From the NCBI GenBank assembly GCA_012523015.1, contig JAAYJI010000246.1, forward strand, positions 1 through 38,735: a DNA stretch of 38,735 nucleotides. The letters run 5' to 3'. Numbering within the stretch: position 1 is the first letter of the stretch; each line of letters begins with the position of its first letter. Positions 3,097 through 29,763 of the stretch are shown here, in pieces. The notes under the pieces are model-generated. The model did not search any database, was not told the origin of the DNA, and saw only the letters and a program-made list of their open reading frames with translations. A program made the translations under genes and the position numbers. Origin of the DNA: Candidatus Hydrogenedentota bacterium (lineage in GTDB: Bacteria > Hydrogenedentota > Hydrogenedentia > Hydrogenedentales > CAITNO01).

Positions 3097-4974
3097 TTAC
3101 CCTTTCGGCTCTAACACAACAAAAGTGGGCAGTCCAAGAACACCAAAGTATTCGACCACTTCCTGAACAGACCCACCGGACAAATCTTCCGCCTGAAATT
3201 TAATTTTTACATGATCTTCCAGTTGCTGCAGCACCGCTTCGTCTTTCAACACGGTCTTATCCTTGGCAAGACAGTTTTTGCACCACGTCGCCCAGAAATC
3301 GATGATGACGGGGCGCTGTTCTTCTAAGGCACGGCTCAGCCCTTCCTCAAGGGAAGCCGTCCATACACTGTCTTCGGAGGTCTCTGCCGGCACGTACACC
3401 GCACGGGTATACGCTAGATATCCATAGTATACGGCGAAGATCAAAATAAACACACCAAAAGCTTGCTTGACCCGAACCATCCACATGCCCGGTTTCGGCA
3501 AAAAGGAAAGGCCGGCGCCCAAAAACGGCCAGGGCAGCGCCATGCCGACCCCCAAGCCAAAGGGCAGCGCTAACGCAAAGACATAACCGTTGCTATACAA
3601 ATCCTGCGCTTGAAGAACCGTGTAGATGACCACAGGCGCGACACAAGCACCTGCCAATAAAGCGGAGACTGCGCCCATACCCAGCGCTGCAAAAAAATGG
3701 CCGCCGCTCTTCACGCCTAAGCGCCCCTGGAATTTTGAAAAGTCAATCTGAATCACGTCGAACATGGCAAGCGCCAAGACCACAAACAAAAGGGCTATGG
3801 CAACATTGAACCAGACCGTGGCATTCAATACGCCGAAGGCTGTGGAAAGACCAAGGACCACCACCAAACCCAAGGAACCGTAGACCAATGCCATGCCGAG
3901 CCCGTAGGCAGTGCCCAAGGCAAAGCCCCGTTTCCGTGAGCCCGCCTGTGCACCTGCGCCGATAATGGCGATATTGATCGGGATCAGCGGCAATACACAG
4001 GGCGTGAAATTAAGCAGCAGCCCGCCGCCCACTACCACCAGAATCATCCACCACCACCCGCTCGACGCGCCGCTCTTATCGGTGGAACTGCTCTCGGATT
4101 GTTGTTCCAAAAAAGTCAAAAATCCCCGCGTTTGCGTGTATCCCGCAAGGCTGCCTGTCACCTTGAATTGATCCGCCAAGGCACGCCACCCCACTTCCAC
4201 TTCGGTCGAGGGCTCCGCCGAAGGTGCTGCCTCGACAAGGGCTTCAACCGTCGCAGGCCTTGCTTCCGCCGTCACCAACTCCCTTTGTTCCGCAGCGGTT
4301 TCACTCTCGTCTGCGGGCAATTCTTCCGCCCCTTCCACAACGGCTTCTTCCGTCCTTTCTACAACGGCTTCTTCGGCCTCAGACGCAGCAGCCAACAGTA
4401 GTTGATCCACCGGCGGCAGCTGATCCCAAGCCGCAGCAGCAAACCATTCCGGTGCTGTCCGCTCCGGCGTCGTCTCCGCAGCGGTGACCGTGATCGGAAT
4501 CGCTATAGCCAAGACTTGCGGCTGCGCGCAGATCGTATCGTTGCACGCTTGATAGCGCAAACTTCCATTGAGCACATAGTCACCGGCAGCAAGGTCCGCA
4601 TCGGCCTGGGCGCGAAAACCAATAACAAAACTGCCGTCATACACGGCTACGGGATCTTCTGAAAATCCTAGACGCACCACTTCATGTTCGGGATAAACGA
4701 TTTCAATTTGGTCAAAGCCTTCGGTATCTTCCAGCGTCAATTCGGTGGGAATCAAAAAATCGTCTAGGGGGGTGTGCCCGTTCATGTGCCAGCCGTCGCT
4801 GATGCTGACCTGCACAGCGCCTAAGAAAGGAATACCGGCTTGGACGGTATCGTTTTCCAATGCCGCATCATAGGTAACGGTCGCCCCTTTTCCAAAGCCT
4901 AATTGACCAAAAGCTGCGGGACCGCCTGCAACGACCAAAACCAACAATCCAATACTGATAAATAATCTGCGCAT
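3097..4974 (-). CDS. dsbD: Thiol:disulfide interchange protein DsbD
   Basis: A 625-residue protein that carries electrons from cytoplasmic thioredoxin across the inner membrane to periplasmic thiol proteins. The start at 4974 gives a signal peptide (MRRLFISIG to AFG) and has an AGGAG site 7 bases upstream; the longer open frame to 5058 would put 28 residues before it. An N-terminal alpha domain carries ACNDTIC. Next comes a linker of about 90 residues very rich in Glu and Ala, then a CcdA-like membrane domain with PCVLPLIPI and AGACVAPV cysteines, then a C-terminal thioredoxin domain with WCKNC. All three cysteine pairs of DsbD are present. It could supply reductant to the secreted TlpA-like proteins encoded at 25553-29763. 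Confidence 0.95.
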   Translation of the reverse strand: MRRLFISIGLLVLVVAGGPAAFGQLGFGKGATVTYDAALENDTVQAGIPFLGAVQVSISDGWHMNGHTPLDDFLIPTELTLEDTEGFDQIEIVYPEHEVVRLGFSEDPVAVYDGSFVIGFRAQADADLAAGDYVLNGSLRYQACNDTICAQPQVLAIAIPITVTAAETTPERTAPEWFAAAAWDQLPPVDQLLLAAASEAEEAVVERTEEAVVEGAEELPADESETAAEQRELVTAEARPATVEALVEAAPSAEPSTEVEVGWRALADQFKVTGSLAGYTQTRGFLTFLEQQSESSSTDKSGASSGWWWMILVVVGGGLLLNFTPCVLPLIPINIAIIGAGAQAGSRKRGFALGTAYGLGMALVYGSLGLVVVLGLSTAFGVLNATVWFNVAIALLFVVLALAMFDVIQIDFSKFQGRLGVKSGGHFFAALGMGAVSALLAGACVAPVVIYTVLQAQDLYSNGYVFALALPFGLGVGMALPWPFLGAGLSFLPKPGMWMVRVKQAFGVFILIFAVYYGYLAYTRAVYVPAETSEDSVWTASLEEGLSRALEEQRPVIIDFWATWCKNCLAKDKTVLKDEAVLQQLEDHVKIKFQAEDLSGGSVQEVVEYFGVLGLPTFVVLEPKG

Positions 4975-5058
4975 ATACAATTCTCCTGAAACTTGGAGGT
5001 CAGTCCACTTTGCAAACCTCCCAAAAGTAGAACGCTTATTAAAAGCAATTGATTCCAA

Positions 5059-10881: not shown

Positions 10882-11382
10882 ATGGCAACTGCGATCTCAA
10901 CGAGCTCATTCCCGGAAGTGGAAGCGCTGCTCGCACGCTATCCCGACGCGGGTCGAGATGCACTCATTCCCATTTTACAGGAATTGCAAGATACACTGGG
11001 GTATCTGCCGCGCCCGGTGATTGCGCGGGTGGGCGAACATTTAAAGCTGCCTGTCAGCAAAATTTATGGGGTGGCAACCTTTTACAATCAGTTTCGATTT
11101 ACCGCCCTGGGCAAATACCACATCCAAGTGTGCCGAGGAACGGCGTGCCACGTGAAAGGTTCCGCCCAAGTGCTCGACGATATCCGCTGCCTGCTGGATT
11201 TGGAGCCGGGCGAAACTTCTAAAGACGGTTTATTTTCGCTGGAAGTGGTTGCCTGCATCGGCGCATGCGGACTGGCTCCCGTGATCAAAATCAATGATGA
11301 TTTTCACGCTGACATGACCACATCAAAAACAGAACGGGTTATAAAAGCCCTGAAAAAAGAGGCAAAATCCCATGAAAAATAA
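10882..11382 (+). CDS. NuoE-like [2Fe-2S] subunit of NAD-linked [FeFe] hydrogenase (HydC/HndA type)
   Basis: A 166-residue thioredoxin-fold ferredoxin like the 24-kDa subunit of complex I. The four cluster cysteines are C84 and C89 (CRGTAC) and C125 and C129 (CIGAC), with the N-terminal helical block PILQELQDTLGYLP typical of the family. An AAGGAG site lies 7 bases before the ATG. It is the first of seven genes and overlaps the next by 11 bases. In HydABC and Hnd complexes this subunit sits beside the flavin subunit and passes electrons to or from NAD(H). The complete trio encoded here supports the assignment to a hydrogenase rather than respiratory complex I. Confidence 0.94.
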   Translation: MATAISTSSFPEVEALLARYPDAGRDALIPILQELQDTLGYLPRPVIARVGEHLKLPVSKIYGVATFYNQFRFTALGKYHIQVCRGTACHVKGSAQVLDDIRCLLDLEPGETSKDGLFSLEVVACIGACGLAPVIKINDDFHADMTTSKTERVIKALKKEAKSHEK

Positions 11383-13387
11383 TGTATCCCCAAACCCTGT
11401 AAATGAAACAGTCTCCCTATCCGGCTCGTTGAGTGCGGCAGACTTAAAACAGTGCTTATGCGCCGACCACGAAAAAGACTTGGATCAGGCGCTCCGCGAC
11501 AAGTTGGCGCTGCTGCGTCACGAAGACGTTCAGCGGCCCACCATCTATATAGGCATGGGCACCTGCGGCCTCGGCGCAGGGGCAGGCAAGACGTTGACTG
11601 CGCTCCGTGCTTGGCTCGAAACGAATAAACAAGAAGCCGACATTGTGGAAGTGGGCTGTATCGGCCTTTGCAGTGTCGAGCCGATTGTAGACGTGCAGCT
11701 TCCCGGCCGCCGCCGTGTATCCTTTGAAAAGGTGACGGAAAAGATGGCGGGCAAGTTGCTTGAATCCGTGTTCAACGGCAAGACCGATGCGGCACCGGTA
11801 CTCGGACAATATGCAGGCGAAGGACTGGAGGCGTGGGACAATACCCCCGCTCTTGAGGAACATCCCTTCTTCGCGCCGCAAACGCGGCTTGTCCTCGCGC
11901 TCTGCGGTGAAATCGATCCTTGCAGTCTTGATGAATATGCTGCCCATGGCGGGTACCGCAGTCTAAACCGCGTGTTGACCGACCAAGATCCGGCCGGTGT
12001 CTGCGATGCCGTGGAGCAAAGCGGATTGCGCGGACGCGGCGGCGGCGGTTTCCCCACGGGCCGTAAATGGAAATTTGCCCGTGGTGCAGAAGGCGATCAA
12101 AAATATCTCATCTGTAATGCGGACGAAGGGGATCCCGGCGCGTTCATGGATCGTGCCATTATTGAAGGTGCGCCCCACCGCTTGATCGAAGGCATGATTA
12201 TCGCCGGTTACGCCATTGGCGCAAGCAAAGGTTATGTCTACATTCGCGCTGAATATCCTTTGGCGATCAGCCGCTTGAAAACCGCTTTGAAACAAGCCCA
12301 TGATGCGGGCTTGCTCGGCGATAACATTCTCGGTTCAGACTTTAATTTTGATATCGTGTTGAAAATGGGCGCAGGCGCTTTTGTCTGCGGTGAGGAAACG
12401 GCGCTGATCCATAGTGTCGAAGGTAAACGGGGCATGCCCCGGCCTCGCCCGCCCTTCCCCGCCGTTCGCGGCGCTTTTGGCAAACCGACCATTATCAACA
12501 ACGTGGAAACCCTTGCCAATATCCCGCCCCTCTTAGCGATGGGCGCGGAAGCCTTCGCCGCCATGGGCACAGACGACAGCAAAGGCACGAAAGTCTTCGC
12601 GCTGTCGGGGAAAGTCACCCATACGGGTCTTGTGGAAGTGGCGATGGGTACCTCCATCCGCGACATCATTTTCACCATTGGCGGCGGCGTGCCCAACGAA
12701 CGCCGTTTCAAGGCGGTTCAAATGGGCGGTCCTTCCGGCGGCTGTATCCCGGAAGCCCATCTGGATATTGAAGTGGATTACAATTCACTGAAATCGGTGG
12801 GCGCGATTATGGGATCAGGCGGCATGGTCGTCATGGATGAAGACACATGCATGGTGGATGTGGCAAAGTTCTTCATGGACTTTGTGCAGCGGGAAAGCTG
12901 CGGCAAGTGCATTCCCTGCCGTGAAGGGACACGCCGGATTTTGGAAATCCTGCAGCGTATCACCCGCGGCGAACGTAACGAAAGTACGGAAGACGCCCTG
13001 CAACGTTTCCAAGGTATCGTCTACATGGAACGGTTGGCAAAAGTGATCCAAGACACCAGTCTATGTGGTCTGGGTCAAACAGCGCCGAACCCTGTACTCA
13101 GTACGCTGCGCTGGTTCCGCGACGAGTATGAAGCCCATATCTATGAGCGGCATTGTCCCGCCGGAGTCTGCCAGGAATTGCGTTATTTTGTCATTGACCA
13201 AGACAAATGCACGGGCTGCACCTTGTGTGCGAAACGCTGCCCCACGGACGCCATCGTCGGTGAATTGAAACAAGCCCACTACATTCTTGCTGATAAATGT
13301 ATCGGCTGCGGCGCTTGTGTGAATGTATGTCGTTTTGATGCAGTTGAGCTGCGCCAATTTGAAGATGCGCTTACTGCCGCCCCATGA
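11372..13387 (+). CDS. NuoF-like NAD(H)/FMN flavoprotein subunit of [FeFe] hydrogenase (HydB/HndC type)
   Basis: A 671-residue cytoplasmic subunit with four parts. First is a thioredoxin-like [2Fe-2S] domain (GMGTCG near residue 63 and GCIGLC near residue 95). The NuoF core carries the FMN/NADH loop GRGGGGFPTGRKW near residue 222 and NADEGDPGAFMDR, followed by an SLBB segment. The four-cysteine cluster motif SCGKCIPCREGTRR starts at C510. A two-cluster ferredoxin tail occupies about residues 610-660 (CTGCTLCAKRCP and CIGCGACVNVC). The fused N-terminal and C-terminal Fe-S domains are the mark of HydB/HndC over respiratory NuoF. In bifurcating enzymes this FMN subunit splits electrons between NAD and ferredoxin. 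No other flavin subunit is encoded nearby. Confidence 0.95.
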   Translation: MKNNVSPNPVNETVSLSGSLSAADLKQCLCADHEKDLDQALRDKLALLRHEDVQRPTIYIGMGTCGLGAGAGKTLTALRAWLETNKQEADIVEVGCIGLCSVEPIVDVQLPGRRRVSFEKVTEKMAGKLLESVFNGKTDAAPVLGQYAGEGLEAWDNTPALEEHPFFAPQTRLVLALCGEIDPCSLDEYAAHGGYRSLNRVLTDQDPAGVCDAVEQSGLRGRGGGGFPTGRKWKFARGAEGDQKYLICNADEGDPGAFMDRAIIEGAPHRLIEGMIIAGYAIGASKGYVYIRAEYPLAISRLKTALKQAHDAGLLGDNILGSDFNFDIVLKMGAGAFVCGEETALIHSVEGKRGMPRPRPPFPAVRGAFGKPTIINNVETLANIPPLLAMGAEAFAAMGTDDSKGTKVFALSGKVTHTGLVEVAMGTSIRDIIFTIGGGVPNERRFKAVQMGGPSGGCIPEAHLDIEVDYNSLKSVGAIMGSGGMVVMDEDTCMVDVAKFFMDFVQRESCGKCIPCREGTRRILEILQRITRGERNESTEDALQRFQGIVYMERLAKVIQDTSLCGLGQTAPNPVLSTLRWFRDEYEAHIYERHCPAGVCQELRYFVIDQDKCTGCTLCAKRCPTDAIVGELKQAHYILADKCIGCGACVNVCRFDAVELRQFEDALTAAP

Positions 13388-13427
13388 CCTTAATCCATCG
13401 TCACATTGAAATCAAGGAGCAACCAAC

Positions 13428-15149
13428 ATGCTAAATATAACCATTGATAACAAGCCTTGCGCCGTAGCGGAAGGAAGCACTATTTACGAGGCGGCGAAAA
13501 CCTTGGGCGTTACCATTCCGACGCTCTGCCATCTCGAAGGACTGACCCCCACCGGCGCATGCCGTATTTGTGTCGTTGAAGTGGAAGGCTTTCCGGGACT
13601 GGTGCCCTCCTGCTCTTTTCCTGTTTCTGAAGGAATGAAGATAACCACCCATTCGCCGCGAGTGCTGCTGGCACGCAAAACCATTGTGGAATTGCTGCTC
13701 GCCAACCATCCCGACGACTGCCTGTACTGCATCCGCAACACCGATTGTCAGCTGCAAGATTTGTCGGGAGATTTGGGGGTGCGCCGGCGGCGCTATCAGG
13801 GAGAACGGAACCGCTATAAGGTGGACGTGTCCAGCCCCTCCGTCATACGGGATCCCGAAAAGTGCATCCTCTGCGGCAAGTGCGTGCGGGTTTGTGAAGA
13901 AGTGCAACAAGTGGCCGCCATCGACTTTATCGGCCGCGGCAGCAGCTCCCATGTGGGCACGGCATTCGATGAAGGTCTGAACCTTTCCAGCTGCATCAAT
14001 TGCGGTCAGTGCATCCTCGTCTGCCCCACAGGCGCGCTCCACGAACATGACAATATTAAAGAAGTGACGGCAGCGCTCAATGATCCTGAGCTGATGGTGG
14101 TCGTGCAGCACGCGCCGAGTGTGTCCGTCACCCTTGGCGAAGAATTCGGACTGGCTCCTGGCACCGATTGCGACGGCATCATGGTGGCGGCATTGCGCCG
14201 CCTCGGTTTCGACCGGGTCTTTGACACCTCTTTCTCCGCTGACCTGACCATTATGGAAGAAGGCTCGGAGTTGGTTCACCGCATTAAAACGGGCGGGAAA
14301 CTGCCCATGCTGACCAGCTGCTCGCCGGGCTGGATTAAGTTTGCAGAACAGTATTATCCCGATTTCTTAGACAATGTTTCCACGTGTAAGAGCCCGCAAC
14401 AAATGATGGGCGCAATCATAAAAAGTTACTTTGCCGAAAAAGCGCAAAAGGATCCCTCCAAAATTTTCAGTGAATCCATTATGCCCTGTACAGCCAAAAA
14501 GTTTGAGGCTGGCCGTAAAGAAATGGTTCACGATCACTACGCAGACGTAGACGCTGTGTTGACGACCCGTGAGCTGGCTCGCTTGCTCCGTATGCGGGGC
14601 CTCGACATTACCGCACTTGAACCGGAAGGCGCAGACACGCCCTTTGGCGAACGGACCACGGCGGGCAAGATCTTCGGTGCGTCAGGCGGCGTCATGGAAG
14701 CAGCATTGCGTACTGCCTACCACCTCCTTACGGGAGAAAATCTGGAGAAGCTCGAAGTGAACGACGTGCGAGGCTTGGAAGGCTGCAAAGAAGCCCATGT
14801 GAAAATCGGTGATTTGGAAATTGGCGTCGCCGTCGCGAGCGGACTCAAAAATGCGGCGCAGCTCCTCGACCAGATACGGGCGGGACGGAGTGATCTGCAC
14901 TTTATCGAAATCTTGACCTGTCCCGGCGGTTGTATTGCCGGCGGCGGACAGCCCCTGTCCACCGATCGCAGCGCCGTGGTGGAGCGCATGAAATCCCTCT
15001 ACGCCATTGATGCCGGCGAAAAGTCCCGTGCCTCCCATGAAAATGAATCGATCAAACGGCTTTACGATGAATTCCTCGGCGAGCCGCTCAGCGAAAATAG
15101 TCATAACCTTTTGCATACCCATTATGCCAAGCGGGAAGTAACCCTATAA
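13428..15149 (+). CDS. hydA: Catalytic [FeFe] hydrogenase subunit (HydA/HndD type)
   Basis: A 573-residue subunit that makes or oxidises H2 at the H-cluster. In order: a [2Fe-2S] domain (C34, C45, C48, C62), a His-ligated cluster motif (H94, C98, C101, C107), two [4Fe-4S] clusters (C146/149/152/156 and C189/192/195/199), then the H-cluster domain. L2 is MPCTAKKFE with C354 and L3 is EILTCPGGCIAGGGQP, both canonical. L1 reads TSCSPGW (C298, S299) where the textbook motif is TSCCPxW. The C-terminal small-subunit-like tail is present, so the protein is full length. AAGGAG precedes the ATG by 8 bases. The HydE/F/G maturases are not in the window. Confidence 0.96.
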   Translation: MLNITIDNKPCAVAEGSTIYEAAKTLGVTIPTLCHLEGLTPTGACRICVVEVEGFPGLVPSCSFPVSEGMKITTHSPRVLLARKTIVELLLANHPDDCLYCIRNTDCQLQDLSGDLGVRRRRYQGERNRYKVDVSSPSVIRDPEKCILCGKCVRVCEEVQQVAAIDFIGRGSSSHVGTAFDEGLNLSSCINCGQCILVCPTGALHEHDNIKEVTAALNDPELMVVVQHAPSVSVTLGEEFGLAPGTDCDGIMVAALRRLGFDRVFDTSFSADLTIMEEGSELVHRIKTGGKLPMLTSCSPGWIKFAEQYYPDFLDNVSTCKSPQQMMGAIIKSYFAEKAQKDPSKIFSESIMPCTAKKFEAGRKEMVHDHYADVDAVLTTRELARLLRMRGLDITALEPEGADTPFGERTTAGKIFGASGGVMEAALRTAYHLLTGENLEKLEVNDVRGLEGCKEAHVKIGDLEIGVAVASGLKNAAQLLDQIRAGRSDLHFIEILTCPGGCIAGGGQPLSTDRSAVVERMKSLYAIDAGEKSRASHENESIKRLYDEFLGEPLSENSHNLLHTHYAKREVTL

Positions 15150-15159
15150 GCCAGTTATC

Positions 15160-17163
15160 ATGAGCCAAAGCGACTGTAACATAGCCGTAGTCAACACGGT
15201 CAAAGAACGGTGCCGCGTTTGTTTCACCTGCGTGCGCGAGTGTCCCGTCAAAGCCATACGCATCATTGACGGACAGGCCGAGGTGATGCCGGAACGGTGC
15301 ATCGGCTGCGGCAACTGTGTGCGCGTGTGCAGCCAGAACGCAAAGCAAGTGCGCGACTGCACCGCCAATGCCATGTCCTTGTTGAAAGGGCCTGCGCCTG
15401 TGGCGGCGCTGGTTGCTCCCAGCTTCCCCGCAGAGTTCTCGGAATGTGAACCCGGTGAGTTGGTGGGTATGCTCCGTGCTCTGGGCTTCGAATACGTGCA
15501 TGAAGTCGCCTTTGGCGCGGATCTCGTTGCGCGCGCTTATCGGCATCTGCTCGAAAACACGCCGGATAGCCGCTATATCGCCACGACCTGCCCCGCCATC
15601 ATCGCCTATGTGGAACAGTATTATCCGGAGCTGGTCCCGCAGCTGGCGCCCATTGTATCGCCCATGATCGCTACGGCGCGTGTGGTGAACCGACTTTACG
15701 GCCCGGAAGTGCGCAGCATTTTCATCGGCCCCTGTATTGCGAAAAAGGGCGAAATGCTCAGTACCCGATTGCCGCGGGAAGTGTTCGCGACCCTCGCCTT
15801 TTCAGAGCTGCGCAAACTTTTTGATGCCGTCTCCTTGACGCCTGAAGACGTGGAGCCCTCCAACTTTGATCCGCCCCACAGCGGCAACGGTATGCTCTTT
15901 CCTATCAGCGGCGGTATGTTGCAGGCGGCTGATCTACGAGAGGATCTGCTGGAAGGCGACATTGTGACCGCTGAAGGCAGAGAATCTTTCGTCGATGCCA
16001 TTCATGAATTCCCGGATATGGATGTGGCGCTGTTGGAAGTGCTCGCCTGTCAAGGCTGCATTTCAGGTCCGGGTATCACGAATCCGGCTCCCTTGTTCCG
16101 GCGACGGAGCCGCGTGAGCCGCTACGCCCGGAGCTGCGCCGCCAAAGCCGATAAAGCGCAATGGGAAAAGGAAATGGATCGCTACAAAGATATTCCGCTG
16201 ATCCGCTCCTTCCAAGTGAAAGATCAGCGCTATGCGCCGCCCTCTGAGGAAGATATCCAAAGAGCCCTCGAGAATATGAACAAGATGAGTTCTGAAGATC
16301 ATCTCAATTGCGGCGCTTGCGGCTATGACACCTGCCGGGAACATGCCATTGCCATCTGCAAGAATCTGGCAGAAACAGAAATGTGCCTGCCCTATACGAT
16401 TGAAGAGCTGAAGCGTGCTGTGGGCGACCTTGCCCTGTCCAACACGCAGCTGAAGAAAACACAACAGGCATTGCTCCATTCCGAGAAACTCGCGAATATG
16501 GGACAGCTGGCGGCAGGTATCGCTCACGAACTTAACAACCCCCTTGGCGTGGTGCTCATGTATTCCCACTTGCTTAAGCGTGAATTTAGTGAAGCGGATA
16601 AAGTGGGTCAGGACTTGAGCACCATTGTGGAGCAGGCGGACCGCTGCAAAAAAATCGTGTCCGGGCTGCTGCAATTTGCGCGCCAGAATAAGGTGGAACG
16701 GCAGCAGGTCAATATGGATACGCTGGTCCGTTCCTGCCTCAAAGGCTTTTCCAATCACATCCATATCCATGTTAGATTACTCAACAAGCTGAGCGATCCT
16801 TTCGTGGAAGTTGATCGCGATCAGATTAGCCAAGTCTTGGTGAATCTTGTGGGCAACGCTTTTGACGCCATGGGTAAAAAGTCCGGCACCCTGACATTGA
16901 CCCTATCCGATACGACGAAACAGCTGCAGCTTGATGTGGAGGATACGGGGCCGGGAATGTCTAAAGAGACGGAGAAGAATATATTTGAACCCTTCTTTAC
17001 GACGAAAAGTATAGGCAAAGGTACGGGCCTCGGCCTGTCCATTGCCTACGGTATAGTAAAAATGCACCGCGGCGATATTCGCGTGTCGTCAAACTGCGAT
17101 CCTCATAAAGGACCTGTAGGCACCCGATTCACTGTGACGCTGCCGAGAGTTGATCTGGAATAA
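15160..17163 (+). CDS. Sensory [FeFe]-hydrogenase domain fused to a histidine kinase
   Basis: A 667-residue soluble protein. Residues 18-57 hold two [4Fe-4S] motifs ([23 protein letters not shown]). Residues 80-325 are an H-cluster domain with C144 (TTCPAI), C192 (PCIAKKGE) and C297/C300 ([10 protein letters not shown]). A further Fe-S motif (C384, C387, C392, C409) is followed by a likely coiled coil (413-445), a HisKA domain with H456 in [11 protein letters not shown], and a HATPase domain with DTGPGM and GTGLGLS. The position of the catalytic proton-relay cysteine is Thr (T143), as expected for a sensor rather than an enzyme. It matches the histidine-kinase-linked sensory hydrogenases (group C type). 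There is no transmembrane or PAS domain. It starts 10 bases after hydA. The signal, probably H2 or redox state, is inferred. Confidence 0.92.
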
Positions 17164-19909: not shown

Positions 19910-21682
19910 TTATGCCTTTCTTCGTCGTCGGGACAGCATGAAAGCGCCTGTGCCGAGGGCTAGGATTCCCACTATAATCCCGCTGCCCAGCGGCATCGCG
20001 TCTTCCGGGAGCACCTCAAGTATAAAGGGCGTGCTCGAATAGACCTGATCATTATCGTTCATGACCTGCAGTTGATACACGCCGGCATCGCTCAGGTCTA
20101 CCGATAAGATAACATAAGAAGTGCCGTGTTCGCCGGGGATGGGGACGCCATCCTTGACCCACACATAGCCCGTGATTGTACCGGGTATATTTTGCACAAG
20201 ACTTTTCAATTCGATCCGTGTCCCCGTCGTGGTACGGGGCGAACCAAGGATGGATACAACAGGGCTTGGCGGCGTTACATGACCGGTCATTGCTTTGATG
20301 CAGATATTCCCATCGGGCATATACGCACTGTAGTCTTCATAGGTGACGCCGTCAGGACTAAAATAGCTTTGTGCCGGTCCACCCGTCGTTTGCGAAAAAC
20401 CGGGAATCGAAATTTCCACCGGAATCGGGTAGCCCATCCCCGGCGTCTCATAGCGGATACGGACGGTGAAATAGGCGTCTTCCTCAATCGTTAAAGGCTC
20501 GGGCAGAGCGATCACGTGATACCCGGCATGTTCCAAAGAAACAGAAAAGCTTAACAACGGATTGGAGAACTGATAATTGACCGCGCCGCCGTCGTAGATA
20601 ATAATTTCAAGATTGGCATTGTTCGACAAGACATAGGTACCCACGGATACCAAGCTTTCCGTCGCCTCTGCCTGAAATACGTTGGCAGCATAGACAACCG
20701 TAGAGGGAGGAAATCCCTGCGATGAGACATGACCTAAAGGGTCGTATTGATAGATACGCTCCCAAGGATATACTTCCGTCAACTCATAGAATCCGGTAGC
20801 TATTTTACAGGCTTGGTGATCGTAATAGGAGATGAAAAAATAGCCGTGGTCTCCGAAGAGGGTACCCCAACTATTCTTGCAAATCCAAGCCCCTTTGCCC
20901 GGCGCGCCGACAACGGTCTTATTATTATCCCAGCCCACAATCGTAACCATATGATTCAAGACCTCAGATCCGTTGTAATAGTAGCTTGCGGAACTTACGT
21001 CGAAAGCATTGTTCATCCATGTCATAGGCGTAATAACAGGGCCCCGGTTCATGACGGCAGCCTTGATCGGATCTTGCCCGTTAGGAGCGCCATTTTGTAG
21101 ATCGGCGTAGAGTGTCGCTTCACCCAAGCGTTTCTGAGGTGCTGCGCCCGGAACAGGCCCCGTGATCGCATGCTGATTATAGGGATCGTCGCTCTCTTTG
21201 AGAGGGCCGCTCCAGCGTGAGAGATAGGCCATGGCAAGGGAATCATTACCGCCGGCGCAGGCGTCCCACAAAAACCCATGGGTATTTTTCATGTGGTTTT
21301 CTGAAAAGTCCCACGATTCGCCCAGATGGATTTGACACCACGCTTCTAAAGCGGCACAGGTCGAAAAGGCCCAACAAGCGCCGCAAATTCCCTGATCCTT
21401 GATTGGAGTCAAGGTTATCGTGTCGCGCCAATCAAAGCGCTCCGGATAGACGGAATCGGCTTTTTCTGCGCCGAGCTCACAGAGGTGAGACCAGTCCACC
21501 GGACCGGGCACATAGCCATAGTTTCTCGCCCCGTCACCCTTGCTCTGTTGTTGGGCAGTAAAGGCAGGGTTGAAGGGGGCGGTCTCCAGTGTTTGCGCCA
21601 AAAGACTCGCGCCGCTCAGCAATCCAATCAGGATTGCCGTGCAGAAAATCGAATAGTACCGATCGTGTTGCTTGCTTACCAT
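19910..21682 (-). CDS. Secreted papain-like (C1A) cysteine protease with Ig-like domain and C-terminal membrane tail
   Basis: A 590-residue exported protease. A signal peptide ends near residue 30 (SLLAQ). The catalytic domain starts at about residue 80 with Q97 (oxyanion) and C103 in QGICGACWAFS; the catalytic His is H244 in LNHMVTIVGW and the Asn is N270 in CKNSWG, so the triad is complete. The short pro-region (about 50 residues) lacks a recognisable papain inhibitor domain. Residues 300-460 form a beta-rich region, then an Ig-like segment near 475-560 and a tail of PLGSG, a hydrophobic helix and RRRRK. That tail resembles PEP-CTERM-like sorting signals. AGGAGG precedes the ATG by 10 bases. 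Confidence 0.92.
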   Translation of the reverse strand: MVSKQHDRYYSIFCTAILIGLLSGASLLAQTLETAPFNPAFTAQQQSKGDGARNYGYVPGPVDWSHLCELGAEKADSVYPERFDWRDTITLTPIKDQGICGACWAFSTCAALEAWCQIHLGESWDFSENHMKNTHGFLWDACAGGNDSLAMAYLSRWSGPLKESDDPYNQHAITGPVPGAAPQKRLGEATLYADLQNGAPNGQDPIKAAVMNRGPVITPMTWMNNAFDVSSASYYYNGSEVLNHMVTIVGWDNNKTVVGAPGKGAWICKNSWGTLFGDHGYFFISYYDHQACKIATGFYELTEVYPWERIYQYDPLGHVSSQGFPPSTVVYAANVFQAEATESLVSVGTYVLSNNANLEIIIYDGGAVNYQFSNPLLSFSVSLEHAGYHVIALPEPLTIEEDAYFTVRIRYETPGMGYPIPVEISIPGFSQTTGGPAQSYFSPDGVTYEDYSAYMPDGNICIKAMTGHVTPPSPVVSILGSPRTTTGTRIELKSLVQNIPGTITGYVWVKDGVPIPGEHGTSYVILSVDLSDAGVYQLQVMNDNDQVYSSTPFILEVLPEDAMPLGSGIIVGILALGTGAFMLSRRRRKA

Positions 21683-24604: not shown

Positions 24605-24856
24605 ATACCCTATCGTCGAATCGGGTCGGTCCTACGCAAATTTTGGCTTGGGAGCGGAGATTTCTGCTTGACTACTGGTTTGAAGGCAAATTTGAAGAAT
24701 AAAAGTAATTTCTGCGCCTCAGCGCACAGCCTTCTGCTTTATGTTGCGCCGCCGCCGCAGCCTAAACTTTGGGGGATCCGATCAAAAGTGATATCATAAT
24801 TTCCTCTATCCGTTTTGTGTGAATCATCTGCCCCACCACGTCAAGGGAGAAAATGC
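24605..24856. other. Divergent intergenic region between bamD and apt
   Basis: The bamD start and the apt start are about 355 bases apart. The region holds the bamD promoter-like site at one side and an apt promoter-like site at 24769-24797. No gene or stable repeat is seen between them. Confidence 0.5.
24769..24797 (+). promoter_or_regulatory. Putative apt promoter
   Basis: TTGGGG (24769-24774) and TATCAT (24792-24797) are separated by 17 bases, about 60 bases before the apt ATG. CATAAT at 24795-24800 is an alternative -10. Confidence 0.38.
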
Positions 24857-25378
24857 ATGGATCTGGCTTCTGTAATTCGCAATATTCCTGATCATCCGAA
24901 GGCGGGCGTTCAGTTTAAAGATATTACGACCTTGCTCATTCAACCCAAAGCGCTGCAAGAGGTCATCAGTCGTTTTAAAAAGCGCTACTGCGATCAACAG
25001 CTCGATGCCATTGTTGGCGTTGAAGCGCGGGGCTTCATTTTCGGCACTGCCCTCGCCTACGCCATGGAACTGCCTTTCATACCGGCTAGAAAACCGGGCA
25101 AACTGCCGGCAGCGACTATCCAAGAGTCTTTCCAACTGGAATATGGAACAGACAGCATCGAAATACATACGGACAGTATTCAAAAAGGACAACGTATCCT
25201 CATTGTTGATGATCTGCTCGCCACAGGCGGTACCGTCGCCGCCACACAACGGCTGGTACAGCGCTTAGGAGGCGACGTGATAGAAGCCGCCTTTGTAATT
25301 GAACTGCCCCAGTTAAAGGGCAGGGCAGCCTTAGCGCCCTTGTCGGTCTTTTCACTGCTTCAGTTTGATGATCCTTGA
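24857..25378 (+). CDS. apt: Adenine phosphoribosyltransferase
   Basis: A 173-residue cytoplasmic purine-salvage enzyme that makes AMP from adenine and PRPP. The N-terminus MDLASVIRNIPDHPKAGVQF and the FKDITTLL block are typical, VGVEARGFIFG follows, and the PRPP-binding motif is RILIVDDLLATGGTVAA near residue 115. The ATG at 24857 has AAGGGAG 9 bases upstream; the frame extends to 24815, but the extra 14 residues do not fit the family. Length is the standard 170-180. It is transcribed away from bamD and toward the sialidase fusion, separated from it by 174 bases. Confidence 0.95.
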   Translation: MDLASVIRNIPDHPKAGVQFKDITTLLIQPKALQEVISRFKKRYCDQQLDAIVGVEARGFIFGTALAYAMELPFIPARKPGKLPAATIQESFQLEYGTDSIEIHTDSIQKGQRILIVDDLLATGGTVAATQRLVQRLGGDVIEAAFVIELPQLKGRAALAPLSVFSLLQFDDP

Positions 25379-25552
25379 CGAAGACGGTGCGCACACTCTA
25401 GGAAGAACAGGATTTTATTTTGATCGTGTTACTCCCTCAATGATGAACATTACAAACCCCCATCTATATCCACAGAACTAAAACAGCGATAAAGAAGGTT
25501 TGTTACTTATATACAAAAAGAAATGCATGCTGATCGTTATAAGGAGAATTAC

Positions 25553-28381
25553 ATGAAGAAATTACATACGTTTACGCTGGCAGTTTTGATGCTTGCTGCG
25601 TCTGCCACAGCGCTGGAAGAACATTATATTTTCCCGCTGCAAGATAAACATGTGCACGCATCAAGCTTGGTGGAAACGTCGGAAGGGGATATTCTGGCAG
25701 CGTGGTTTCACGGATCAGGCGAGCGCTGGGCCGACGATGTGGCAGTCTTGGGGTCTCGGCTCCGTAAAGGTGCCGATGCGTGGGAACCCGTATTTACCAT
25801 GGCCGATACACCCGATTTCCCGGACTGCAATCCCGTTTTATTCATCGACTCCCAAGAACGCCTTTGGCTCTTCTGGGTCGTGGTACTCGCCAACCGCTGG
25901 GAAAACTGTCTGCTCAAATATCGCCGTGCAGACGTATATAATGAAGACGGCGCGCCCCACTGGAACTGGCAAGACATCATCACTTTTCGGCCCGATGACG
26001 AGTTCCCCGATAAAGTGAAGGAAGCCTTCAAAGCATTGGATTCTCCGGAAGATCTGTGGGCGGAATATGCCCCGCCCTATTCCGAATTGATTGTGGAAGC
26101 GACGCGAGACAGCTTGAAACGGCAGATCGGATGGATGACCCGTAATCATCCTTTGGAATTGCCGACGGGCCGCATTTTGCTTCCCCTGTACCACGACGGC
26201 CTCAATATATGCCTCATGGGTATTTCTGATGATGTGGGCGAGAACTGGACGATCAGCGAGCCTATTATGGGGCTCGGTCATGAGCAGCCCACAGTGGCGC
26301 GGCGCAGCGACGGCAGCCTCCTCGCCTATTTTCGAGACAGCGGCCCGAAACCCTATCGAACGCAATACGCAACCTCCGCCGATGATGGAGAGACTTGGTC
26401 GCTCACCGAGGACACGGACATTCCCAATCCCAGTTCCAGCATGGAAATTCTGGCGCTGCAAGATGGCCGCTGGATCATGATTGCGAACGACTTGGAAGAC
26501 GGACGCCATCGGCTGGGCATGTTCCTATCCACCGATGAAGGACGCAGCTGGCCCGTGGTACGCTATTTAGACGACAACACCGAGGACTGCAGCTTTTCAT
26601 ATCCTTCCCTATTACAAGGGTCGGACGGAAGGATACACGCCTCCTATTCCTATAAGGTGCCTGAAGGCAAAACGATCAAACACGTTTCTTTTATGCCCGA
26701 TTGGATCGAGTCGGAAGATGTGGAACGCGCCGACCGGCCGGAAGAGACGACGCCCGTTGCGGATGATGCACCCGTTGCGGATGATGCGCCTGAGCCGGTC
26801 GAAACAACGAGTTTCACGCCCACAGACGGGGCGTCCCTCGTCGAGCATTGCGCGGCGACCTTGGCGTCTTGGAAAAGCTTCGCCGTGAATTACAACACCA
26901 CCTTTGTCTATACACGCGGTTCGATCAACCAAGAAGCCTTTATGGAAGGCGATATGGTCTTGGGTGAGGGTAATTTAGGACGAATCCACATTAAGCGCCA
27001 AGACAGCGACACCATCACCTATAACAGTCCGGCAGGACAGTTTGTTGTTGCGCCCGCCTTGAACAAATACACGCCCATGCCGCTGGCTGCAAGCCGCAAA
27101 AACTTGGTAGCCACCATGACCACAGGCACGGTGGAACCGCTCCTCGCCTTGTTCGGTGAATTGCTCGAAGGTCAAGTGCCTCCCTTAGATACCCTGTCTT
27201 TCACAGAAACTGAAGTGGGTGAAAAGGCAGTTTGGAATCTTAAAGGGGAAAGCAGCGATTATTTTTTAAATATGATCCTGCCCGTCACGGAACCTGTCGT
27301 TCCCCTGTCACTCACAATGAATTTTAAAGAGCCTTTGATCAACAAATATAACTTTCCCGCCGATGCCGCGCTGTCTATTGTCATGAATTTTTCGGAATGG
27401 TCGCCGGAAATTACCGTGGTAAAAGAAGACTTTGATTTCGTGGCAGCCGACGATGCACAATCCGCCACCTTAGCCGAGCTCTCTACCAAACCCAAAATTG
27501 AAGTGGGACAGCCGGCACCGGACTTTTCGCTTGACGATATGGACGGCAATTCCTTCCGCCTCCAAGAACATATTGGCAAAGAAGTTATTTTGCTGGAATT
27601 TTGGTCGACAAACTGCACGGTCTGTCAGCGGCTTGCCCCGGAACTCAATACTTTCGCTCAAGCAATGGCAGGAGAAGACGTGGGCATTTACGGCATCAAT
27701 CTGCGCGCCACGCCCGAAGCCATCGAATACTTCTTTAAAGAAGACATTCCCGTCTACCCCATTTTGATGGATAGAAACGGTTCGGCAGGTAAATTATATG
27801 ATGCTACAAGCGTGCCCAGAATGGTATTGATTGGTAAAGATGGACTGATCAAAGGCGTCTACAGGGGCATGCCCGAAGGGATTATCAACACGCTGACAGA
27901 GAAGATTCGTCAGCTGCAAACGGAACCCGCCGATTCTCCGGCTGAGGAAGCCAAGATTGTAGTGGGCGCGCAAGCGCCGGATTTCACACTGGGACAAATG
28001 GACGGCGATGAAATACGTCTTTCCGCTTTGACCAAAGAGCATCCTGTAGTCTTGGCATTTTGGGCGAGTTACTGCGGGTATTGTAAACGCGCGCTGCCCA
28101 TAGTTTTAGACGTCATGAATTCTTTTCAAGATAAAGGCGTTGTTTTTTATGGTGTGAACCAGCGGGAAAACCCGGAAAAAATCAAGGCTTATTTTGATGA
28201 TGCCGACTTATCCTTTCCTGTATTGCTGGATACGGATGCGCAAGTGGGAGGCTCCTATGAAATCCGGGGGATTCCAAGAATCGTAATCGTAGGCAAGGAC
28301 GGAATCATTAAAGGTGTACATCAAGGCTTGCAGCCGAATCTGGCTGAATTGCTAAACGACCAACTCTCTAAACTGATTTAA
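25553..28381 (+). CDS. Secreted fusion: BNR sialidase-like, lipoprotein-carrier-like and two TlpA-type thioredoxin domains
   Basis: A 942-residue exported protein. A signal peptide (to ATALEE, residue 18) precedes a six-bladed propeller-like domain, about 20-385, with Asp-box-like turns (SDDVGENW, SADDGETWS, STDEGRSW) as in exo-alpha-sialidase-like proteins. A linker with two VADDAP repeats (401-412) leads to an all-beta domain (about 430-640) resembling LolA/DUF2092-type outer-membrane lipoprotein carriers. Two TlpA/ResA-like domains follow: APDFSLDDMDGNSF with C688-TVC and APDFTLGQMDGDE with C841-GYC. AAGGAG lies 7 bases before the ATG. The second half is related to the next gene. I know of no characterised protein with this order. 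Sialidase activity is not shown, and the propeller may only bind glycans. Confidence 0.85.
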   Translation: MKKLHTFTLAVLMLAASATALEEHYIFPLQDKHVHASSLVETSEGDILAAWFHGSGERWADDVAVLGSRLRKGADAWEPVFTMADTPDFPDCNPVLFIDSQERLWLFWVVVLANRWENCLLKYRRADVYNEDGAPHWNWQDIITFRPDDEFPDKVKEAFKALDSPEDLWAEYAPPYSELIVEATRDSLKRQIGWMTRNHPLELPTGRILLPLYHDGLNICLMGISDDVGENWTISEPIMGLGHEQPTVARRSDGSLLAYFRDSGPKPYRTQYATSADDGETWSLTEDTDIPNPSSSMEILALQDGRWIMIANDLEDGRHRLGMFLSTDEGRSWPVVRYLDDNTEDCSFSYPSLLQGSDGRIHASYSYKVPEGKTIKHVSFMPDWIESEDVERADRPEETTPVADDAPVADDAPEPVETTSFTPTDGASLVEHCAATLASWKSFAVNYNTTFVYTRGSINQEAFMEGDMVLGEGNLGRIHIKRQDSDTITYNSPAGQFVVAPALNKYTPMPLAASRKNLVATMTTGTVEPLLALFGELLEGQVPPLDTLSFTETEVGEKAVWNLKGESSDYFLNMILPVTEPVVPLSLTMNFKEPLINKYNFPADAALSIVMNFSEWSPEITVVKEDFDFVAADDAQSATLAELSTKPKIEVGQPAPDFSLDDMDGNSFRLQEHIGKEVILLEFWSTNCTVCQRLAPELNTFAQAMAGEDVGIYGINLRATPEAIEYFFKEDIPVYPILMDRNGSAGKLYDATSVPRMVLIGKDGLIKGVYRGMPEGIINTLTEKIRQLQTEPADSPAEEAKIVVGAQAPDFTLGQMDGDEIRLSALTKEHPVVLAFWASYCGYCKRALPIVLDVMNSFQDKGVVFYGVNQRENPEKIKAYFDDADLSFPVLLDTDAQVGGSYEIRGIPRIVIVGKDGIIKGVHQGLQPNLAELLNDQLSKLI
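26753..26788 (+). repeat. Two 18-base tandem repeats in the linker
   Basis: The unit CCCGTTGCGGATGATGC plus one base occurs twice, encoding the VADDAP linker between the propeller and carrier-like domains. The copies differ only in the last base, pointing to a recent duplication. Confidence 0.85.
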
Positions 28382-28461
28382 AAAGAGTCGCTCCCAACGA
28401 AGCCGCAGTTGCGTAATCAAGGGTAAACAACACCACCTGAAAAAAAGCAAGGAATCGGTAT

Positions 28462-29763
28462 ATGGATAAAAAAAGGTGGATCAGCCTGATACTACTTTTA
28501 GCGGTGACAGCCGCCTTCGGCTGCTCTATGGTATTTTTGAAGGTTTTTCAGAAACCTGTCGAACCGGACACGGATGCGCCACAGGCAACAGAGACAGCCA
28601 CGGATGCGCCACGGGCGACAGAGACAGCTACGGATGCGCCCGCTCCCCAATCCCCTTTGGATGGGGCTGCGCTCCTGCAAGCGACTGCGGCAGCACTGGG
28701 CACAGGTCATGCGCTCCGCGTAGACCTTGAAGCACAGATAACCGCGAACCAAGGGGCAATCACCCAAAATTCATCGATTGCGGGATCTATCGAATTGGGC
28801 GAAAACAACCTGGGAACACTCCACCTTAAAGACGAACACCTTAGCTTCAGCATTCATAATGATGCCCAAAACTGTGTGACCTTCTTATCCGAAAAGAATC
28901 AATATATAAAGACGCCGGCTATGAAGACACGGAGCGAGCTGCTCTCCCGAGGATTTCCCGGGATCATGGAAGTGCCCTTGCACTGGCTCACCTCGCTCTT
29001 GGCAGGCGCCGTACCTGACCACGATGCGTTGACCGTGTCGGAAGCCAGCTGCGACGGCGTGCCGTGCCGGGCACTGCAGGCGGATTCGCCTGAATACGAA
29101 TTGACCCTGTCCTTATCGCAAGCAACGCCGCCTACGCCTCTTTCCATGGAGGTCGTTTTGAAGCCGGAGGCCATGAAAAAACATCGCGCCCCCGCCAATC
29201 TCAGCGTCAAAATGACGCTGACCTTCCATGATTGGCAACTTGCTTTTGAGCCGCCACAGGACTATTTTACTTTCGTGCCGCCGGCAGGTGCCGTTGAAGC
29301 CACCCAGGACACTGCCGCAGCGGGAAATGCTCCCCGTGAAGGCGATACTGCGCCACTCTTTACGCTCCCGTCTCTTAACGGTGAAAGCGTGGATCTACAG
29401 AACTATGTGGGCGGCCATGTGCTAATCCTCGATTTTTGGGCGACGTGGTGCGGCCCCTGTCGCAGGGTCCTGCCTGTGCTTGCCAAGCTGTCCCAAGAAT
29501 TCGCCGAACGCAATGTCCTTCTTTTCACGATCAACCAACGGGAAACGCCGGAAAAGATTCAAGGCTTTTTAGAACAACAAGGGCTTGATGTTAAGGTCTT
29601 GTTGGATTCCGCCGGAGTGGCAAGCCGTTTGTATCACGTAACCGGTATTCCGCGCATTGTGATCATTGGTAAAGACGGCACGATCAAAAAGATTTACGCA
29701 GGCTTCTCCGAAACCCTCGAAGCATCCATTGCCGCTGTTTTAGAAGAGATGACCGCTTCTTAA
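28462..29763 (+). CDS. Membrane-anchored lipoprotein-carrier-like and TlpA-type thioredoxin protein
   Basis: A 433-residue protein with one N-terminal hydrophobic helix (about residues 5-26). A Cys at 21 (AAFGC) is a poor lipobox, so it is probably membrane-anchored or loosely lipoprotein-like. A TDAP/TETA repeat linker (residues 37-60) precedes a beta-rich domain (65-275) like that of the preceding protein, then a TlpA/ResA-like domain with APLFTLPSLNGES and WCGPC at C330/C333. It lies 80 bases after the sialidase fusion, on the same strand. Its carrier-like plus thioredoxin half matches that protein, so one gene probably arose from the other. Electrons could come from DsbD (3097). Substrate unknown. 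Confidence 0.85.
   Translation: MDKKRWISLILLLAVTAAFGCSMVFLKVFQKPVEPDTDAPQATETATDAPRATETATDAPAPQSPLDGAALLQATAAALGTGHALRVDLEAQITANQGAITQNSSIAGSIELGENNLGTLHLKDEHLSFSIHNDAQNCVTFLSEKNQYIKTPAMKTRSELLSRGFPGIMEVPLHWLTSLLAGAVPDHDALTVSEASCDGVPCRALQADSPEYELTLSLSQATPPTPLSMEVVLKPEAMKKHRAPANLSVKMTLTFHDWQLAFEPPQDYFTFVPPAGAVEATQDTAAAGNAPREGDTAPLFTLPSLNGESVDLQNYVGGHVLILDFWATWCGPCRRVLPVLAKLSQEFAERNVLLFTINQRETPEKIQGFLEQQGLDVKVLLDSAGVASRLYHVTGIPRIVIIGKDGTIKKIYAGFSETLEASIAAVLEEMTAS
28570..28640 (+). repeat. 30-base tandem repeats encoding a TDAP-ATETA linker
   Basis: Two complete 30-base units (28570-28599, 28600-28629) and an 11-base partial third are almost identical, differing at four positions. They encode the repeated TDAP(Q/R)ATETA linker after the membrane segment. 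Few differences suggest recent slippage; copy number may vary between strains. Confidence 0.88.

Follow-up and report, generated by a model that had tools for sequence, protein, structure and literature searches.

The closest described systems to the gene reported here are the GH33 sialidases, the DUF2092-TlpA proteins, the LolA lipoprotein carriers and two groups of thioredoxin-fold proteins, the periplasmic ResA/CcmG/TlpA oxidoreductases and the DsbC-type isomerases. A threonine before the cis-proline is typical of disulfide isomerases. A tyrosine as the second residue of the CXXC dipeptide is described as a hallmark of isomerase-type enzymes, and ResA features a glutamate three residues after its CXXC (PMC5909903). 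The CXXC motif is, however, an unreliable predictor of function (PMC7949104). The DUF2092 family was earlier tied to LolA (PMC4520260) and is hardly mentioned in the literature searched, and proteins that combine a LolA-like domain with a thioredoxin are widespread in the class Hydrogenedentia and unexplained.

The window analysed here is a 38,735-nucleotide stretch of contig JAAYJI010000246.1 from a Candidatus Hydrogenedentota bacterium. It carries a gene in which a GH33-fold propeller is joined to a LolA-like domain and two thioredoxins. As originally predicted, the frame contains no stop or frameshift, and it encodes 942 amino acids. Its features are as follows.

25541..25546, forward strand: Shine-Dalgarno sequence AAGGAG, serving the ATG at 25553
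25553..28381, forward strand: fusion gene, 942 amino acids, stop codon included, open frame uninterrupted
25553..25615, forward strand: Sec-type signal peptide, residues 1 to about 21 (from the sequence; cleavage site by eye)
25616..26716, forward strand: BNR_2/GH33-fold propeller, residues 22–388 (Pfam, AlphaFold2, Foldseek, alignment)
26717..26842, forward strand: linker at the join, rich in Pro, Ala, Asp and Glu, residues 389–430 (from the sequence)
26843..27487, forward strand: LolA-fold, DUF2092-like domain, residues 431–645 (profile, model, Foldseek)
27494..27907, forward strand: thioredoxin 1 (TRX1), TlpA/ResA-like, motif CTVC, residues 648–785 (Pfam, alignment, tree)
27941..28378, forward strand: thioredoxin 2 (TRX2), TlpA/ResA-like, motif CGYC, residues 797–942 (Pfam, alignment, tree)

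A longer version of the frame, starting at 25523, has no Shine-Dalgarno sequence, and the start at 25553 is preferred because AAGGAG precedes it. The fusion protein of a second genome of the same genus (G003) also has MKK at the position of the 25553 start. The N-terminal part matches BNR_2 in two stretches (Pfam, 3e-44), and the C-terminal part is matched twice by the AhpC-TSA/Redoxin/Thioredoxin families of the TlpA type (Pfam, NCBIfam). All four domains and both redox motifs (C688–C691, CTVC; C841–C844, CGYC) that had been read from the sequence are real, being borne out by Pfam and structural models. The remark that these four domains are not normally found together was an overstatement. 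A LolA-like domain and a thioredoxin share one gene commonly in the class and form a normal pair there, so that the fusion in effect consists of two units.

The same domain order was sought in 68 genomes of the phylum (the class set consists of the same 68). The propeller–LolA–thioredoxin join lies within one frame in all four of these genomes that belong to the window's genus, g1 (G000, G001, G002 and G003), and in none of the others among the 68. G003 (60% identity over residues 1–941) and G001 have the whole fusion protein in a single frame. In G002, whose contig starts inside the propeller, a single frame runs from the last part of the propeller through the linker and all that follows. Among the four species, identity of the fusion proteins falls to 46–60%. 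Separate genes, which the original prediction would have expected in all close relatives if the join were spurious, are seen in other genera only. The first ~38 codons of the G002 contig (L017:2-115, contig C505) are in frame yet unrelated to the propeller, and this start is probably a chimeric contig end.

It had been claimed that the base composition shows no break across the frame. GC does fall near 27000, from ~0.56 in the propeller end and linker to ~0.47–0.51 in the LolA-like domain and thioredoxins, yet all parts stay inside the 0.43–0.58 span of the flanking genes. This mild step is what could be said for an assembly or frame error as the source of the long frame, and the identical join in G001, G002 and G003 leaves that explanation with a negligible probability. 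We conclude that the two parts were truly fused into one gene and that the fusion is fixed in a single genus.

Other long or unusual propeller frames, on contigs C174 of G004, C242 of G049, C400 of G057, C1 of G030, C103 of G026, C41 of G015, C37 of G056 and C77 of G054, contain no LolA-like or thioredoxin domain. Locus L061:3178-5646 of G049 carries a tandem pair of this family's propellers in one 822-residue frame. Among plasmids, the best 10 matches listed are propellers without a fusion partner whose identity does not exceed 30%, and no plasmid match covers 80% of the query. The viral contigs searched contain no relative, and a scan of genome contigs gave one unfused propeller (L009). A literature search for the fusion architecture found no relevant description.

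The propeller is predicted by AlphaFold2 (pLDDT 93.6) as a six-bladed β-propeller, and the best PDB matches of the model are GH33 sialidases (Foldseek, 1.9e-18), in agreement with the fold originally proposed. In the window genome, the fused copy is the sole close copy of the propeller (the next match is 47% identical). There are three Asp boxes, at residues 225, 275 and 326. In a sequence alignment, R261 and R318 align with two arginines of the catalytic triad and Y350 with the tyrosine nucleophile of the Micromonospora viridifaciens enzyme, whose active-site numbering was used to place them. All three residues are invariant in 33 of 33 propellers. The column of the catalytic Glu reads Gln (Q245) in 31 of the 33, where the pairing of Tyr with a Glu partner was not seen, and the position of the RIP arginine, aligned by eye and not by structure, appears to be His (H35) in all 33. 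The propeller is without the canonical Glu and probably without one triad arginine. The family is probably catalytic; "sialidase" here names the fold, and the activity is only putative. NanE was not found in the window genome, which weakens the case for sialic acid as a nutrient. Sulfatase matches number 15 in the same genome and BNR_2 matches about a dozen, a profile that a degrader of sulfated polysaccharides would be expected to show.

Cys119 and Cys220 are both present in all three readable fused propellers, whereas the pair is absent from each of the other 30 propellers aligned. A disulfide between these two cysteines, a pair found only in the fused form, could in principle let the attached thioredoxins switch glycan binding or hydrolysis by the propeller, making the single polypeptide a redox-gated glycan enzyme. 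Cys119 alone is also present in several unfused propellers, and one genus represents one evolutionary event. With a single event behind the pair, redox gating is very unlikely.

The LolA-like domain, taken alone, has no Pfam match in the window protein; DUF2092 (PF09865) matches 26 of 27 homologous domains, the window's own domain alone not being among them. All PDB matches of a profile of the domain are LolA (E ~0.002). The AlphaFold2 model (pLDDT 95.0), an open β-barrel with a helical lid, bears out the predicted lipid-carrier-like fold: it matches LolA, LolB, LprG and RseB in Foldseek (best 3e-9), with LolA structures heading the list at TM-scores of ~0.45–0.6.

The genes on either side of the fusion give clues to its origin.

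24815..25378, forward strand: apt-like phosphoribosyltransferase, whose place beside the propeller gene is conserved
28462..29763, forward strand: downstream paralog with a hydrophobic N-terminal anchor, a DUF2092 domain above the Pfam cut-off and one thioredoxin (CGPC)

An apt homologue adjoins the propeller gene in g1 (the window and G001) and in genera g3 and g6. Genus g1 has the order apt, fusion, LolA-thioredoxin gene. In the three genomes of the sister genus g3, the genes follow one another on one strand as apt, propeller, quinone oxidoreductase and LolA-thioredoxin gene; the last two share 4 bases in each genome, and G005 has one extra gene between propeller and oxidoreductase. The stand-alone g3 propellers stop (DWIAAE or similar) exactly where the fusion enters its linker. 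The suggestion that a sialidase gene had fused with a redox lipoprotein gene therefore holds as far as the fusion goes, and both partners are identifiable. On the redox side it is a DUF2092-TlpA gene, whose product is apparently membrane-anchored in g1 and has an ordinary-looking signal peptide in g3; the term lipoprotein finds no support.

In a tree of thioredoxins, TRX1 and TRX2 are sisters (support 96/87) and the thioredoxin of the downstream gene comes next (95/81). In a tree of LolA-like domains, the fused and downstream copies are sisters (100/99) with g3 outside (99/97). These trees put the origin of the fusion inside genus g1. In the simplest history suggested by them, the LolA-thioredoxin gene was duplicated in tandem and the intervening reductase gene was lost from this spot; the upstream copy fused to the propeller via the linker and had its thioredoxin doubled, the downstream copy being the gene at 28462–29763. 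All of these steps, in whatever order, would then predate the parting of the four species. Genus g13 (L083, L090, L093, L094) has a LolA-thioredoxin gene adjoining a separate thioredoxin gene, a pairing that parallels the doubled thioredoxin of the fusion; the tree puts g13 in another lineage.

Between G003 and G001, dN/dS is ~0.12 for the propeller, ~0.20 for the LolA-like domain, ~0.11 for TRX1 and ~0.17 for TRX2, although dS approaches saturation. G001 and G002 are a close pair, and here dN is well below dS for the LolA-like domain, TRX1 and TRX2; the propeller value of this pair is spoilt by the unrelated contig end. In both trees, the end branches of the window copies (25553–29763) exceed those of G003 severalfold in length, and the window assembly is smaller than that of G003; the window lineage is perhaps faster-evolving and reduced.

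Both thioredoxins have the thioredoxin fold, the CXXC motif and the cis-proline. TRX1 reads CTVC in all four species, and TRX2 reads CGYC in two and CGFC in the other two. Where a LolA-thioredoxin protein of the class stands alone, its motif is nearly always CGPC (in a few, CPPC or CRPC), and both thioredoxins of the fusion have lost the proline of this motif. This loss, together with the Tyr in one of them, points away from a plain reductase. The residue before the cis-proline is Val in TRX1 and Ile in TRX2 of the window, not the Thr of isomerases.

The best NCBIfam and PDB sequence matches of the thioredoxins are ResA-like proteins, and the window genome has a weak ResB match, as would suit a protein of the ResA type, working in cytochrome c maturation and joined to a propeller by chance. 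In the alignment, the ResA glutamate after CXXC (PMC5909903) is missing from both TRX1 and TRX2. The dipeptide proline is lost as well, and so is the membrane anchor: at the N-terminus of the fusion stands the signal peptide of the propeller, with no ResA/CcmG-type inner-membrane anchor. A role in cytochrome c maturation is highly improbable.

A more serious alternative, though still an unlikely one, is a neutral fusion of convenience, in which two exported proteins came to share one gene and one signal, each still working as before the join and neither half depending on the other in function; the linker may even be cut once the protein is exported. It agrees with ancestral genes that already stood close together on the same strand and with a long, proline-rich linker that varies in length and sequence between species and is poorly conserved (35% identity between the window and G003). 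It accounts less well for the retention of the join in four species despite their divergence, and for the alteration of the active sites of both TRX1 and TRX2 after the event.

A possible source of electrons is encoded in the same window.

3097..5058, reverse strand: DsbD-type protein, ~20 kb from the fusion; the 3.7-Mb assembly has no other DsbD_TM match

This protein is the likely electron donor of the fusion. DsbB and VKOR were not found in the window genome (a draft assembly, 95.8% complete). The genes at 10882–17163 resemble those of an NADH-linked [FeFe]-hydrogenase; the last of these (15160–17163) joins a hydrogenase-like domain to a histidine kinase, and its product is a possible H2 sensor. 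The sole DsbD, the lack of DsbB and VKOR and the hydrogenase genes suggest an anaerobe with at least a reductive periplasmic arm. A papain-family protease with a lectin-like domain is encoded at 19910–21682.

We consider it moderately likely that the gene, which arose by fusion as outlined above, encodes a glycan enzyme that is soluble in the periplasm and tethered to a disulfide reductase/isomerase fed by DsbD. The tethering of the propeller to the redox half is a fact of the gene; electron flow, substrate and why the halves were joined are all inferred. The original prediction entertained a surface protein with glycan binding and a redox chain of its own, and a periplasmic or secreted location seems likelier than a surface-held one because the signal is an ordinary Sec-type sequence and no anchor is visible. 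The propeller's signal peptide would carry the entire fusion across the inner membrane, where it would be soluble and unanchored. DsbD would keep the redox half reduced, and this half would serve as a disulfide reductase/isomerase; the hydrophobic pocket of the LolA-like domain may hold or dock a substrate or partner, while TRX1 and TRX2, both without the CGPC-type proline, would exchange disulfides. The propeller would be an independent module acting on a glycan, probably on an acidic terminal sugar, and the main effect of the fusion would be to tie the redox module to where the glycan enzyme acts or to what it acts on.

What is new here is the fusion of the propeller to the LolA-thioredoxin unit, a modest novelty. 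As a natural event, it points to a shared place or shared substrates for a GH33-fold enzyme and a LolA-thioredoxin oxidoreductase. The fusion, its split relatives and the single-thioredoxin paralog form a ready set for work on the role of the LolA-like domain and on the change of CGPC.

Compared with GH33 sialidases such as that of M. viridifaciens (PDB id: 1eus), the propeller shares the six blades, the Asp boxes, two of the three triad arginines and the tyrosine nucleophile, but has only ~17% identity, Gln for the catalytic Glu and apparently His at the RIP arginine position, and the fusion carries a C-terminal redox half. With the LolA carriers the fusion has a fold in common, but its domain is only marginally similar to them in sequence and is part of a larger protein. 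The thioredoxins share their subfamily fold, CXXC and cis-proline with the ResA/CcmG/TlpA proteins, from which the fusion differs in having no membrane anchor, no ResA glutamate, two tandem domains and dipeptides without proline. The fusion resembles DsbC-type isomerases in that each molecule has two active sites, TRX2 reads CGYC in two of the species and a DsbD is available; unlike in DsbC, the partner domains are others, TRX2 has Ile for Thr before the cis-proline and no DsbC dimerisation domain is seen. The DUF2092-TlpA proteins, such as the product of the downstream gene, have the same order of LolA-like domain and TlpA-type thioredoxin and are sisters of the fusion in the trees; in the fusion, this redox half has no anchor or signal of its own, stands behind a propeller, and has a doubled thioredoxin with CXXC motifs that lack proline.
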